Assembly: GCA_001724025.1 (NCBI GenBank)
Contig: MEDJ01000020.1
Coordinates: forward strand, 62,001-126,000
Source: Acidobacteria bacterium SCN 69-37
Lineage (GTDB): Bacteria > Acidobacteriota > Vicinamibacteria > Vicinamibacterales > SCN-69-37
Reading direction: 5' to 3'
Length of the DNA stretch: 64,000 nucleotides
Position 1 is the first letter of the stretch. Each line of letters starts with the position of its first letter. Position numbers and translations under genes: made by a program. The notes below the pieces were generated by a model. It did not search any database. It was not told where the DNA came from and saw only the letters and a program-made list of their open reading frames with translations. Positions 25,869-32,055 of this stretch are shown here, piece after piece.

Positions 25869-27083
25869 TCACTCGTCGCGCAGGGCGTCGATCGGGGTCC
25901 GCGCGGCCGCACGGCTGGCCGGAAAGTAGCCGAAAATCAGGCCCGCCGACACGGCAAAGGCCACGGCCGTCGCCATGGCGTTGACGGAGACGATGGTCTG
26001 CCACCCGAACATGGATGTCATCAGCGACGAGGCGACCAGGCCGATGGCGATGCCGATCAGGGCGCCGAACAGGCCGAGCACCACGGCTTCGATCAGGAAC
26101 TGGATGCGGATGTCACGCGCCCGCGCGCCAATCGCCAGGCGCAGGCCGATCTCGCGCGTCCGTTCGGTGACCGACACCAGCATGATGTTCATGATGCCGA
26201 TGCCGCCGACGACGAGAGAGACGGCGGCCACCGAGGCGAGCATCAGTCCCATCGTGGCCATGGACGACAACCGGAGGTTGAGCGATTCCTGCGGCCGGCG
26301 GATGTAGAAGTCATCGTCGCCGCCCACGGGAATGCCGTGCCGCAGGCGCAGGACCTCGGACGCGCCGTGCTCCGCGAGCAGCGTATCGGCCGCCGAACGG
26401 GTCGAACAGATGATCTCGCTGACGTAGGTCCGTCCCTCGATGCTGCGTTGCGCGGTCGTGTAGGGCATGACGACCACGTCATCCTGGTTGACGCCGGACC
26501 GATCCGACCCGCGGCGCGCCAGGACGCCGATGATCGTGAACGGGAAGAGCCCGATCCGGACCGTCGCGCCGATGGGATCCGTCGATCCGAACAGTTCGTC
26601 GGCCACGTTCGCGCCGAGCAGCGCCACCTTGGCCCGCTGCGCTACCTGATAGTCTGAAAAGATGGTGCCGGTGGCGACAGTCCACTTCCGGATGTCGAAG
26701 TACGACGGCGCGATGCCGACCAAGCGCGTTCTCCAGTTGCGATTGCCGATGATGACCTGTTCGCGTCCGTTGACCACCGACGAGCAGGCCCCGATCGCCG
26801 GCACGGCCGCTTCGACGGCGTACGCATCGTCGGCGGTCAGCGTCCGGCGACTGTTCGAGCCGCCACGGACGCCGGCGGTGTTGGCGCTGCCGGGCATGAT
26901 CCAGACGAAGTCCTCGCCGAGGGCGTCGAGCTGCGCTTCGATCGCCGCGGTTCCACCGGCACCGAGCGCCACGGTGGACATCACCGCTGCAATGCCGACG
27001 CTGATGCCGAGGGCCGTGAGCGTGCTGCGCAGCCGGTTGCGCAGCAACGCGCGAAGGGCCATCCGGACAGCGTTCCCTATCAT
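25869..27083 (-). CDS. MacB-type ABC transporter permease
   Basis: 404 residues with the MacB/FtsX layout: first membrane helix near residues 20-40 (LTALGISVGIAAVMSTV), a periplasmic MacB_PCD domain (about 45-260), then three helices at about 285-395 with SLVVGGIGIMNIMLVSVTERTREIGLRLAIGA, the family signature. A perfect AGGAGGTGA precedes the ATG. The usual ATP-binding subunit (MacA/MacB ATPase) is not next to it, so it must pair with an ATPase encoded elsewhere. The role is probably export or lipoprotein/peptide extrusion; substrate unknown. Confidence 0.9.
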   Translation of the reverse strand: MIGNAVRMALRALLRNRLRSTLTALGISVGIAAVMSTVALGAGGTAAIEAQLDALGEDFVWIMPGSANTAGVRGGSNSRRTLTADDAYAVEAAVPAIGACSSVVNGREQVIIGNRNWRTRLVGIAPSYFDIRKWTVATGTIFSDYQVAQRAKVALLGANVADELFGSTDPIGATVRIGLFPFTIIGVLARRGSDRSGVNQDDVVVMPYTTAQRSIEGRTYVSEIICSTRSAADTLLAEHGASEVLRLRHGIPVGGDDDFYIRRPQESLNLRLSSMATMGLMLASVAAVSLVVGGIGIMNIMLVSVTERTREIGLRLAIGARARDIRIQFLIEAVVLGLFGALIGIAIGLVASSLMTSMFGWQTIVSVNAMATAVAFAVSAGLIFGYFPASRAAARTPIDALRDE

Positions 27084-27997: not shown

Positions 27998-30900
27998 ATG
28001 CGCGTGCGCGCCGGCCGTCTCACGTCATCGCCAACGGATCTGGCGAACTTCCTGGCCTGTCGCCACAAGACGGAGCGCGATCTGCTGATGGCGCGCGGCC
28101 GATTGCCGCGTCCCGAGTGGAGTGACCCGCTCGTCGACGTCCTGCGGGCGCGCGGGCTCGACCACGAACGCGCCTACGTGGACGCCCTGAGGGCCCAGGG
28201 ACTGCACGTCGTGGATCTCACCACGGGCCCGGACGACATCCGCCCTGACGATGATGAGGCCGTGGCTGCGACGATGGCGGCCATGCGAACAGGCGCGGAC
28301 GTCATCGTCCAGGCGCCGCTCGCGCACGAGGGATGGTTCGGCTACGCGGACGTGCTGCGACGCGTGGAGGGCGCCAGTGCGCTCGGCGCGTGGCACTACG
28401 AAGCGCAGGACACGAAGCTCGCGCGCGAGACGCGCGGCGGCACCATCCTGCAGTTGTGCGTGTACGCGCACATTCTCGGCACGCTGCAGGGGCGTGTGCC
28501 CGACAACCTGCGCGTGGTGACGCCCGCCGGCGTGGAGACGTATCGCGTCGACAGCTTCGCGGCGTTCTATCGTCGGCTGCTCGACGACTACGGGCGGTTC
28601 GTGTCCGCGCGGCAGACGGTCGACGAGACGGACGTCTATCCCGATCCGACCGATCACTGCGACGTCTGTCGATGGCAGGTCGCGTGCGCGCGCCGGCGAC
28701 GCCAGGACGATCACCTGTCGTTCGTCGCGGGATTGGGACGCAGTCAGCAGGACGAGCTCGTGTCGCACGACGTCGAGACGCTGGAGCGTCTGGCGACCGA
28801 ATCGGCCGTCGCGTTCACGCCGCATCGCGGGTCGCGCGAGACCTACGAGAAGCTGCATCACCAGGCGAGGGTCCAGAAGGCACAGCGTGACAGGCAACGG
28901 CCCGTCCACGAACTGCTCGACTCCGCTGACGCGGGCTTCGGCCTGCGACAGTTGCCGCTGCCCTCGGCCGGGGATCTGTTCCTGGACTTCGAGGGCGATC
29001 CTTTCGCCCGTGAAGGCGGTCGTGAATATCTGGTGGGACTCGGCCGGGTCACTGCCGATGGCACCTTCGCGTACGACTGCCGCTGGGCGTTCACCGACGC
29101 CGACGAGCGGACGCTTTTCGAGTGGCTCATCGACACGCTCACGGGGGCGATTGCCGACACCCCGGACGCGCACGTCTATCATTTCGCGCCGTACGAGCCG
29201 GCGGCCATCAAGCGGTTGATGACCCGTCACGCGACTCGCGAAGTGGAGGTCGACGACCTGTTGCGCGCCGAACGGTTCGTCGATCTGCTGGCGGTCGTAC
29301 GGCGATCGCTGCGCGCGGGCGTCGAGAGCTATTCGATCAAGAAGCTGGAACCGTTCTACGCGTTCACGCGTGACCTCGCGCTGGACGAGGCCGGCGATCA
29401 GCGGCGTGTCGTGGAACTGGCGCTCGAGACGGGCGATCCCGAGACGATTTCCGAGGCGTCCCGCCGAGCCGTCGAGGCGTACAACTGCGACGACTGCCGA
29501 TCGACGGCGTGGCTGCGCACGTGGCTCGAGCGCCTGCGGGCGGAACTGATCGACACGGGCGTCGACCTCCCGCGGCCGGCCGGGCCCGAGGTGGTCGAGC
29601 CGGAAATCAAGGACCGCGATCGGGGCGTCCTCGACCTGCGGACGCGGCTGCTGGCGCGGATCGACGAGACTGGGATCGCCATGCAGGCAGCCGAGCGCGA
29701 CGCCACGCGCTGCCTGGCCTATCTGCTCGACTGGCATCGTCGCGAAGACAAGGTCGGCTGGTGGGAGTATTTCCGCCTGCGTGGCCTGGCGCCTGACGAA
29801 CTGCTGGACGAGCCGGCGGCCGTCGTCGGGCTCGTGTGCATCGAGCACGTGGACACGAAGGTGAACAAGCGGACGGGGCGGCCCACGGGCACGGTGACGG
29901 ACCGCTATCGGTACCCGCTCCAGGAGTTCGAGATTCGCCGGAAGATGAAGCTCGAGACGCAGGACGGCGTCGCGTTCGGCACCGTCGTGCGTGTCGACCG
30001 CGCGGCCCGGACCTTCGACGTCGAGAAGGGACCGTCAGCGGCGGAGCGACACCCGGACGCCGTCTTTGCTCACGATCAGGTGCCTGGCGGGCCGATGGCG
30101 GATGTGCTGCTGGCGCTCGGCGAGCACGTGGCGGCGCACGGGATGTCCGGGGACGGGCCGTACGTGGCGGCGCGGGCATTGCTGCAGCGCGATCCACCGC
30201 GCGTCGACGGACGGCTTCTCGGAGATCTGCGCGCGTCGGCAGACGAGAGTGCCCTGGCCGTGGACGTGGTCACGCGGCTCGATCCCGGCGTGCTGCCGCT
30301 GCAGGGCCCTCCGGGCACGGGCAAGACGTTCACCGGCGCGCGCATGATCTGCGACCTCGTGCGGCAGGGACGCAGGGTCGGCGTCACGGCCACGGGACAC
30401 AAGGTCATCCGCAACCTGCTCGATGCCGTGGCGCGCGAGGCCGCGAGGCAAGATCTGCCCGTACGCCTCGGTCAGAAGCCGCGCGACGATGAGGAGGACG
30501 CCGGGACGGGGATCGCGCTCTATCGCGACAACAAGGCGCCGCTTGCGGCGCTGGTCTCGGGACAAGTCGACGTCGTCGGCGGCACGTCGTGGCTCTGGGC
30601 GCGTCCCGAATTTGCGTCGTCGGTCGACGTGCTATTCGTCGACGAGGCGGGCCAGATGTCGCTGGCCAACGCGGTGGCCGTGTCGCAGGCGGCCGATCGT
30701 CTGGTGCTGCTCGGCGATCCGCAGCAACTCGAGCAGCCGCAGCAGGGCAGTCATCCGGATGGCGTCGGTGTGTCGGCGCTCGAGCATCTGATTGGAGCAG
30801 ACGCCACGATCACCGGCGATCGCGGCCTGTTCCTGCCGGTCACGTGGCGACTGGCGCCGGCGATCTGCGCGTTCACGTCCGAGGTGTTCTACGAGCGGCG

Positions 30901-31462
30901 TCTGCACGCCCGTCCGCACGCGGCTGCCAGGCGCCTCACGGGCAGCCGCCGGTTCGACGGCGCGGGTCTGCGCGTGGTGGCGGCCTCGCACGACCACTGT
31001 CGCAACGCGTCGGATGAAGAAGTGGCGGTCGTGCGGACGATTGTCGACGAATTACTGGCGCCCGGTGTGCAGTGGGTCGATGCCGACGCGCACGGGCACG
31101 AGGTGGTGCGGCCCATGACGGCAGACGACATCCTGGTCGTGGCGCCTTACAACGCGCACGTGGCGCGGCTGGCCGACGCCCTCGGCCCTGTTGGTGTCGC
31201 GGCAGGGACCGTCGATCGGTTCCAGGGCCAGGAGGCACCTGTCGTGATCTACTCGATGGCCACGTCGCGGCCGGAAGACGCGCCGCGCGGCCTCGACTTC
31301 CTCTACGACCCGCACCGGCTGAACGTGGCGACATCGCGTGCGAAGGGGCTGTGCATCCTGGTCGCCAGCCCGCGACTCTTCGCGCCGGAGTGCCGAACGC
31401 CGCGGCAGATGCGCCTGGCCAACGCGCTGTGTCGGTATCGCGAAATGGCGGAGTCGTCGTGA
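27998..31462 (+). CDS. Fe-S RecB-like nuclease / DEDD exonuclease / SF1 helicase fusion (TM0106-type)
   Basis: Single polypeptide of 1154 residues with three DNA-processing parts. Residues 1-240: Cas4/RecB-like PD-(D/E)XK nuclease with GYADVL and QDTK motifs and a likely 4Fe-4S site, made of Cys21 plus C-x2-C-x5-C near 221-230. Residues about 325-520: RNase-H-like exonuclease domain starting DLFLDFEGDP (DxE). Residues about 740-1150: superfamily 1B helicase resembling Dna2/IGHMBP2, with Walker A GPPGTGKT near 768, Walker B VDEAGQM near 880, GDPQQLEQP, TVDRFQGQE and VATSRAK. It probably unwinds and degrades DNA ends in repair or defence. It overlaps the next gene by GTGA. Confidence 0.9.
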   Translation: MRVRAGRLTSSPTDLANFLACRHKTERDLLMARGRLPRPEWSDPLVDVLRARGLDHERAYVDALRAQGLHVVDLTTGPDDIRPDDDEAVAATMAAMRTGADVIVQAPLAHEGWFGYADVLRRVEGASALGAWHYEAQDTKLARETRGGTILQLCVYAHILGTLQGRVPDNLRVVTPAGVETYRVDSFAAFYRRLLDDYGRFVSARQTVDETDVYPDPTDHCDVCRWQVACARRRRQDDHLSFVAGLGRSQQDELVSHDVETLERLATESAVAFTPHRGSRETYEKLHHQARVQKAQRDRQRPVHELLDSADAGFGLRQLPLPSAGDLFLDFEGDPFAREGGREYLVGLGRVTADGTFAYDCRWAFTDADERTLFEWLIDTLTGAIADTPDAHVYHFAPYEPAAIKRLMTRHATREVEVDDLLRAERFVDLLAVVRRSLRAGVESYSIKKLEPFYAFTRDLALDEAGDQRRVVELALETGDPETISEASRRAVEAYNCDDCRSTAWLRTWLERLRAELIDTGVDLPRPAGPEVVEPEIKDRDRGVLDLRTRLLARIDETGIAMQAAERDATRCLAYLLDWHRREDKVGWWEYFRLRGLAPDELLDEPAAVVGLVCIEHVDTKVNKRTGRPTGTVTDRYRYPLQEFEIRRKMKLETQDGVAFGTVVRVDRAARTFDVEKGPSAAERHPDAVFAHDQVPGGPMADVLLALGEHVAAHGMSGDGPYVAARALLQRDPPRVDGRLLGDLRASADESALAVDVVTRLDPGVLPLQGPPGTGKTFTGARMICDLVRQGRRVGVTATGHKVIRNLLDAVAREAARQDLPVRLGQKPRDDEEDAGTGIALYRDNKAPLAALVSGQVDVVGGTSWLWARPEFASSVDVLFVDEAGQMSLANAVAVSQAADRLVLLGDPQQLEQPQQGSHPDGVGVSALEHLIGADATITGDRGLFLPVTWRLAPAICAFTSEVFYERRLHARPHAAARRLTGSRRFDGAGLRVVAASHDHCRNASDEEVAVVRTIVDELLAPGVQWVDADAHGHEVVRPMTADDILVVAPYNAHVARLADALGPVGVAAGTVDRFQGQEAPVVIYSMATSRPEDAPRGLDFLYDPHRLNVATSRAKGLCILVASPRLFAPECRTPRQMRLANALCRYREMAESS

Positions 31463-32055
31463 GGAACTGGAGCCTTGTGCGGAGCCACCGGGGGGTGGCG
31501 ATGGCGATCGTCTGTGGGCTGGTGGTCGCCGGAGCGCCACGGCACCGCATCGCCGCCGCGTCGCCGGCGGTGACCGTGCACCTCGAATTGATCGAACAGC
31601 CCGCCTGCCTCGCCGAGCCCGATGGCTACCGCCTTGGCTTCGACGTCCGCGCCATCTACGTCAACGAGGGCTCGACGCCGGTGGCGATTGCCGCGGAGGC
31701 CGGCCGGATCGTGGCGGTCACGTTCGACATCGAAGGCGAGGCCGAGACCGTGGCGTTCGCCGTGCCGCCGGGGCTGCTGGTGTCGACGCCGCCTGCGGGC
31801 GCGCACCAGGTGCGGATGGCGCCGGGATGGGCGGTCAGCGAACGCACGGCTGTGTGGGTGCCGCTCTCCGACGGCAGTGGTCTCGAGCCGGGGACGCATC
31901 GCGTGCGCGTCGACGTGCGCGTGCCGCTCGACGGCGCGATGACGACGCTCTCGACGCCGCCGATGGCCGTGCAGATCGACGAGCCCGGTCCGGTCCAGGA
32001 GTGCGGCTCGTTCACGCTGCCGCTGCCGCCCGCAACGCCCGTCCCCCGAGGCTGA
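31459..32055 (+). CDS. Secreted hypothetical protein whose stop codon lies in a palindromic repeat
   Basis: 198 residues from GTG 31459, which overlaps the helicase stop (GTGA); ATG 31501 is an alternative start. An N-terminal hydrophobic segment (MAIVCGLVVAG) predicts export. The remainder is beta-rich, Ig-like in feel, with Val-rich strands (GYRLGFDVRAIYVNEGS and TLSTPPMAVQIDEPG). The protein ends PVPRG because the reading frame runs into palindromic repeat P1 copy 7, where the TGA in the arm/loop terminates it. The family is not recognised. Confidence 0.65.
   Translation: MRNWSLVRSHRGVAMAIVCGLVVAGAPRHRIAAASPAVTVHLELIEQPACLAEPDGYRLGFDVRAIYVNEGSTPVAIAAEAGRIVAVTFDIEGEAETVAFAVPPGLLVSTPPAGAHQVRMAPGWAVSERTAVWVPLSDGSGLEPGTHRVRVDVRVPLDGAMTTLSTPPMAVQIDEPGPVQECGSFTLPLPPATPVPRG

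Follow-up and report, generated by a model that had tools for sequence, protein, structure and literature searches.

Several enzymes are known in which a nuclease stapled by an iron-sulphur (Fe-S) cluster is combined with a helicase motor. In Dna2, for which a beta-barrel and a helical stalk have also been described (PMC4716839), and in Bad, a DNA2-like helicase-nuclease of Geobacillus (Wilkinson et al. 2020, PMC7430649), single-stranded DNA, along which a 5'-3' motor moves, threads the Fe-S-stapled nuclease tunnel. The gene for Bad has a methyltransferase gene as neighbour. UvrD-Cas4-like fusions occur in defence loci that also contain Mod/Res genes and WYL proteins nearby (Hudaiberdiev et al. 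2017, PMC5704561), and COG2251 has been described as a DUF83-type nuclease with an RNase H-like domain and, frequently, a tandem AAA region (Majorek et al. 2014, PMC3985635). In the literature searched, COG2251 appears only in two family surveys, and no functional study (activity or phenotype) of any TM0106/TIGR03491 member was found. The family nevertheless occurs in many bacterial phyla and on plasmids, where its annotation is automatic.

The member analysed here is encoded in a stretch of 64,000 nucleotides from Acidobacteria bacterium SCN 69-37 (the window). It is an ordinary member of TIGR03491, 'TM0106 family RecB-like putative nuclease' (COG2251), a name also carried by full-length homologues in NCBI annotation. 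The TIGR03491 profile covers residues 13-510 (E 5e-66, 223.5 bits in an NCBIfam search), above the curated cut-off of 97.45 bits. The three-in-one enzyme of the original prediction is not an unusual invention: the three-domain architecture is already published and catalogued, in a family known from many phyla. Apparently new, and not found in the literature searched, are the joint loss of four cysteines in one group, a link to Ku, LigD and DUF72 genes, and a same-genus locus without the nuclease.

Domains, conserved residues and structural models

The features of the locus are collected in Table 1. All domains of the predicted single chain (a Cas4-like Fe-S nuclease, a DEDD-type exonuclease and a Dna2/IGHMBP2-like helicase) were found with their residues intact, and Pfam models AAA_30, AAA_11 and AAA_12 match residues 762-1124. 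The check for lost catalytic residues suggested with that prediction was carried out on 77 aligned relatives drawn from many phyla, later widened to 119; all three active sites are near-invariant in up to 119 relatives. The biochemistry that can be predicted for the window protein is well supported by sequence.

Table 1. Features of the TM0106-family locus (window positions)
Feature	Position	Strand	Evidence
TM0106-family (TIGR03491/COG2251) nuclease-exonuclease-helicase, 1154 aa	27998..31462	+	ORF list, TIGR03491, Pfam, full-length model
Cas4/Dna2-like iron-staple PD-(D/E)XK nuclease domain, ~residues 1-245	27998..28732	+	TIGR03491 N-terminus; Foldseek to Cas4, Dna2
Cys21, predicted Fe-S ligand 1	28058..28060	+	kept in 71/72, 77-relative alignment
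Asp118, PD-(D/E)XK motif II	28349..28351	+	116/116 aligned
Asp138-Thr-Lys140, PD-(D/E)XK motif III	28409..28417	+	K140 116/116; D138 = 109 D + 7 E
Cys221-x2-Cys224-x5-Cys230, predicted Fe-S ligands 2-4	28658..28687	+	77/77; 110/118 in wider set
RNase H-like (RNase_H_2, PF13482) 3'-5' exonuclease-like domain, residues 327-510	28976..29527	+	Pfam 5.7e-16; conservation; Foldseek
Helical stalk and beta-barrel-like insert, residues 535-730, between exonuclease and motor	29600..30187	+	full-length model secondary structure
SF1B UPF1/Dna2-like helicase core, residues 750-1154	30245..31459	+	AAA_30/11/12; IGHMBP2, UPF1, Dna2 by sequence and fold
Walker A QGPPGTGKT	30302..30328	+	K776 119/119
Walker B Asp882-Glu883 (DEAGQ)	30641..30646	+	118/118 aligned
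Secreted-type protein gene, native RluD/HtpG neighbour	31459..32055	+	4-base overlap with nuclease stop codon

In the nuclease domain, D118 and K140 are kept in 77/77 sequences of the first alignment, and motif III is followed by Q152-x3-Y156, of which Q152 is invariant or nearly so. Both motifs named in the original prediction, GYADVL (115-120) and QDTK (137-140), are present, although the Q of the latter is not conserved. C21 and the predicted C221-x2-C224-x5-C230 triad are also in place, and they form the iron-staple pattern, i.e. one N-terminal cysteine and a C-terminal three-cysteine cluster around a PD-(D/E)XK core, which is conserved as a unit. C221, C224 and C230 are replaced (by G, A, V or Y) in eight sequences (L138, L144, L145, L148, L149, L150, L155, L156), and in seven of these C21 is replaced as well (by S or N); in the eighth this position is unaligned. 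The eight form one well-supported group in the gene tree and keep the active sites of both nucleases along with the helicase motifs; the tyrosine after Q152 is missing in two. Joint loss of the cysteines with retention of the active sites is as expected of four ligands of one cluster, and supports the prediction that the cysteines share a single Fe-S cluster, which the window protein would bind. The naturally cysteine-less variant is an available control for what the cluster does.

DEDD exonucleases of the DnaQ type carry four carboxylates, D-E-D-D, the third usually being Asp, and a third motif of the form YxxxD or HxxxD. Here D330, E332, E400 and Y495-x3-D499 are conserved in 118-119 of 119 sequences, and the carboxylates read strictly D-E-E-D. 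The motif II position E400 is Glu in 118/119 (Asp in one), and each of the eight short forms checked likewise has Glu there, so that a glutamate as third carboxylate is a family trait. The domain shares D330, E332 and Y495-x3-D499 with the DEDD type but has Glu where the third Asp is expected, and is a putative exonuclease of this type. Foldseek matched this domain to RNase T and the PolC exonuclease, with weak E-values.

The helicase motifs are intact and invariant or nearly so (K776, D882-E883, R951, Q1076, R1114). AlphaFold2 models had a mean pLDDT of 92.7 for residues 1-522 and of 88.5 for the full-length protein (pTM 0.83). The shorter model matched Cas4 (8d3l, 6.5e-5; 4r5q, 9.9e-4) and Dna2 in Foldseek, whereas the best PDB match of the full-length model is Dna2 (1.1e-25), followed by IGHMBP2 and UPF1. 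Global TM-scores against Dna2 are low (0.35-0.39), as would be expected where several domains are compared and one of them is extra; judged from the model, the likeness is one of parts and their order, not of overall shape. The insert before the motor is laid out as in Dna2/UPF1. As a separate observation, the model of the two-domain nuclease-exonuclease core (27998-29563) has matches among the predicted proteins of giant viruses (Faunusvirus, Yasminevirus, Cafeteria roenbergensis virus and Sylvanvirus), where TM-scores over the query are 0.57-0.67.

Since the solved structures nearest to the motor, by sequence and by fold, include UPF1, IGHMBP2 and Sen1, and the middle domain is RNase H-like, the enzyme might be thought to process RNA or RNA-DNA hybrids. 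The best full-length match is to Dna2, however, and the genomic links described below are to DNA repair and DNA restriction genes. To our knowledge, the characterised Fe-S nucleases of the Cas4/Dna2 type act on DNA, and we regard an RNA substrate as improbable.

Locus, distribution and defence context

The original prediction drew attention to a secreted protein translationally coupled to the nuclease. The coupling is real in so far as the downstream ORF overlaps the nuclease stop codon as GTGA (31459-31462) and begins with a signal-like stretch; the ORF has no Pfam match, and the overlap is no evidence about function. In a genome of the same genus (G001), nupC, RluD, the secreted protein, HtpG and MarC follow one another in this order without the nuclease, ~60 bases separating RluD from the secreted gene. 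Coupling is thus incidental, and a partnership of nuclease and secreted protein was ruled out on the basis of this synteny. Nuclease copies in G001, G003, G004 and G008 also lack the RluD, secreted-protein and HtpG neighbours seen in the window, and a functional link between the two has next to no probability. An ABC-transporter permease gene between nupC and RluD (window 25869-27083) is likewise absent from the syntenic locus of G001.

The nuclease copy of G001 lies elsewhere and is 48% identical to the window protein, against 77% for HtpG, and the gene tree does not group the two copies. As the G001 locus is intact without the nuclease, the gene was either gained in the window's genome or lost in G001. 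Its GC content equals that of its surroundings, so that it is not an obviously recent arrival.

Two forms of the family exist, a fusion of ~1150 aa and a short form of ~500 aa. Members above the cut-off, counting either form, were found in 15 of 60 relatives and in 43 of 346 genomes of the phylum. Plasmid records matching the family number 122; carriage by phage is essentially nil, with a single phage record that matches the helicase part only. The gene tree mixes phyla. Judged by these surveys and the tree, the family is patchily distributed, horizontally moved and accessory. An origin of the short forms by gene splitting was considered and rejected: in eight of them (~500 aa) the residues of nuclease and exonuclease are retained, and no neighbouring gene is a credible helicase. 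On a Rhizobium johnstonii plasmid (L173:8001-11397) the homologue is annotated as two overlapping CDSs, a nuclease part and a helicase part, perhaps through a frameshift or a natural split.

Whether homologues lie in defence islands was a check suggested with the original prediction; most of the plasmid copies inspected have defence genes nearby, but the copy in the window does not. About 10 of 11 inspected plasmid copies lie within 8 kb of genes for WYL, SIR2 plus ATPase, ubiquitin-like, DUF4011/Abi, restriction or toxin-antitoxin proteins; annotations near them also include KTSC beside SIR2/ATPase, E2/ThiF, VapBC and SNF2/Sacsin-type genes. None of six control stretches from the same plasmids has a comparable system; their content is metabolic or transposon-related, and nothing closer to such a system than toxin-antitoxin genes or an McrC fragment occurs there. 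On an Ensifer plasmid (L084:1113-11369) a hypothetical gene, an SNF2/DrmD-like helicase, a Sacsin/TmtA-like protein and the TM0106 enzyme form a co-directional row adjoining the genes for plasmid replication; the row may be a defence operon of several genes.

Among 98 neighbours of chromosomal relatives close to the window, PADLOC identified BREX (L142), type III restriction-modification (L007) and PDC-S28 (L011) components, a DrmD-like gene and three WYL matches. None of the three systems was found among 98 control genes, which gave mainly matches to housekeeping paralogues and come from Acidobacteriota genomes overlapping the neighbour set only in part. The excess of defence neighbours over controls is suggestive, the comparison being informal. 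No defence neighbours were seen at the window copy, which has housekeeping surroundings, or at many of the inspected loci of close chromosomal relatives. PADLOC matches to the protein itself (MkoA/MkoC/DpdJ) are confined to the helicase region, and the nuclease part is covered by none of the system models.

Linkage to Ku and LigD, and the proposed role

When 1045 called genes from 80-odd loci were clustered, no widely shared operon partner emerged, and the only recurrent link was to Ku, LigD and DUF72 in one subclade. All three occur together with the TM0106 enzyme at six distinct loci (L013, L018, which is identical to L139, L067, L136, L141 and L157) from two phyla, Eisenbacteria and some Acidobacteriota, compared with about 0.4 Ku-containing flanks expected by chance. 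L018 is a named Acidobacteria locus and L139 comes from a genome classed in the window's phylum, in agreement with the window's place in the Acidobacteriota. DUF72 lies directly upstream of the enzyme gene on the same strand. Two further loci (L023 and L158) have the DUF72-TM0106 pair on contigs that end before Ku-LigD would be reached. Ku was confirmed by PF02735, and LigD by Pfam in L018. The linked loci carry two LigD lineages (~37% identical) in two gene orders.

These findings lend some weight to the view that the protein is a double-strand-break repair enzyme that resects or cleans ends for end joining or recombination, its placement in defence islands reflecting general mobility. Dna2 is itself an enzyme of repair and resection. 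In the phylum sample, moreover, Ku is present in 21 of the 29 genomes that carry the fusion form and in 97 of the remaining 317 (Fisher p 1.5e-5, uncontrolled for genome size and shared ancestry). Within the window's order, however, this co-occurrence is not significant (p 0.13), and all Ku-linked loci belong to a single subclade of the gene tree, outside which the window protein falls. No Ku was found in the window's genome, so there is no linkage to non-homologous end joining (NHEJ) for this copy. That genome already encodes two large PDDEXK_1 proteins side by side, which from their size and adjacency look like AddAB. The sporadic presence of the family is also unlike that of core repair genes. 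We regard this repair reading as rather unlikely.

We favour instead, with a probability of about 0.55, a stand-alone, horizontally moved, Dna2-like machine for processing DNA ends, most likely directed against invading or broken DNA and accessory (defence-type) in nature. Its mobile, patchy distribution and the wealth of defence genes around plasmid copies speak for foreign DNA as the target; for the lineage of the Ku-linked subclade, the linkage speaks for break repair. The original prediction of a resection or anti-phage enzyme is accordingly a reasonable one that gains some contextual support from relatives, although the window copy itself lies outside a defence island.

By analogy with characterised relatives, we infer the polarity, substrate, division of labour between strands and biological role as follows. 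The SF1B motor, predicted to run 5'-to-3', would travel on single-stranded DNA and open the duplex. The threaded strand would be cut inside a tunnel formed by the N-terminal iron-staple nuclease, and the middle RNase H-like domain would trim 3' ends, thus serving the other polarity. As one nuclease would cut the threaded strand and the other trim 3' ends, one chain could consume both strands of an exposed end. Such an activity might serve to destroy or process invading or broken DNA, as expected of an accessory gene and not of a core repair gene.

In at least one lineage (Eisenbacteria and some Acidobacteriota), the enzyme and DUF72 might tentatively be seen as a third arm of NHEJ that processes Ku-held ends before LigD acts, the enzyme being a stand-alone anti-invader nuclease elsewhere. 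If so, one end-processing machine would have been recruited into both repair and defence. Should the favoured reading of an accessory machine be true, the family would unite a helicase and two distinct nucleases in one chain, with a scope like that of RecBCD or AddAB. Its role is testable through three handles: the same-genus locus without the gene, the Ku-LigD-linked subclade, and the subclade naturally without the four cysteines.

Comparison with known systems

Cas4, the CRISPR adaptation nuclease, shares the nuclease fold and the pattern of Fe-S ligands, but in the window protein this nuclease is fused to two further domains, and no Cas4 family model matched the protein in the Pfam or NCBIfam results. 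UvrD-Cas4-like fusions similarly join a Cas4-like nuclease to an SF1 helicase. Their motors are UvrD-like and 3'-5', whereas the window protein has a UPF1/Dna2-like SF1B motor and an exonuclease domain in addition. Bad likewise joins an Fe-S nuclease to an SF1 helicase, here of 5'-3' polarity, and is sporadically distributed. The description consulted mentions no RNase H-like domain in Bad.

Eukaryotic Dna2 (PDB 5ean/5eaw/5eax) has an iron-staple nuclease followed by a stalk, a beta-barrel and an SF1B motor, in the same order as here. The window protein differs in that a further domain, the RNase H-like exonuclease, separates the nuclease from the motor; RNase_H_2 at 327-510 thus makes it Dna2-like, but not a Dna2. 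From TIGR03491/COG2251 it differs in no respect of architecture: an N-terminal PD-(D/E)XK domain with four cysteines, an RNase H-like domain and a tandem AAA helicase are common to both.
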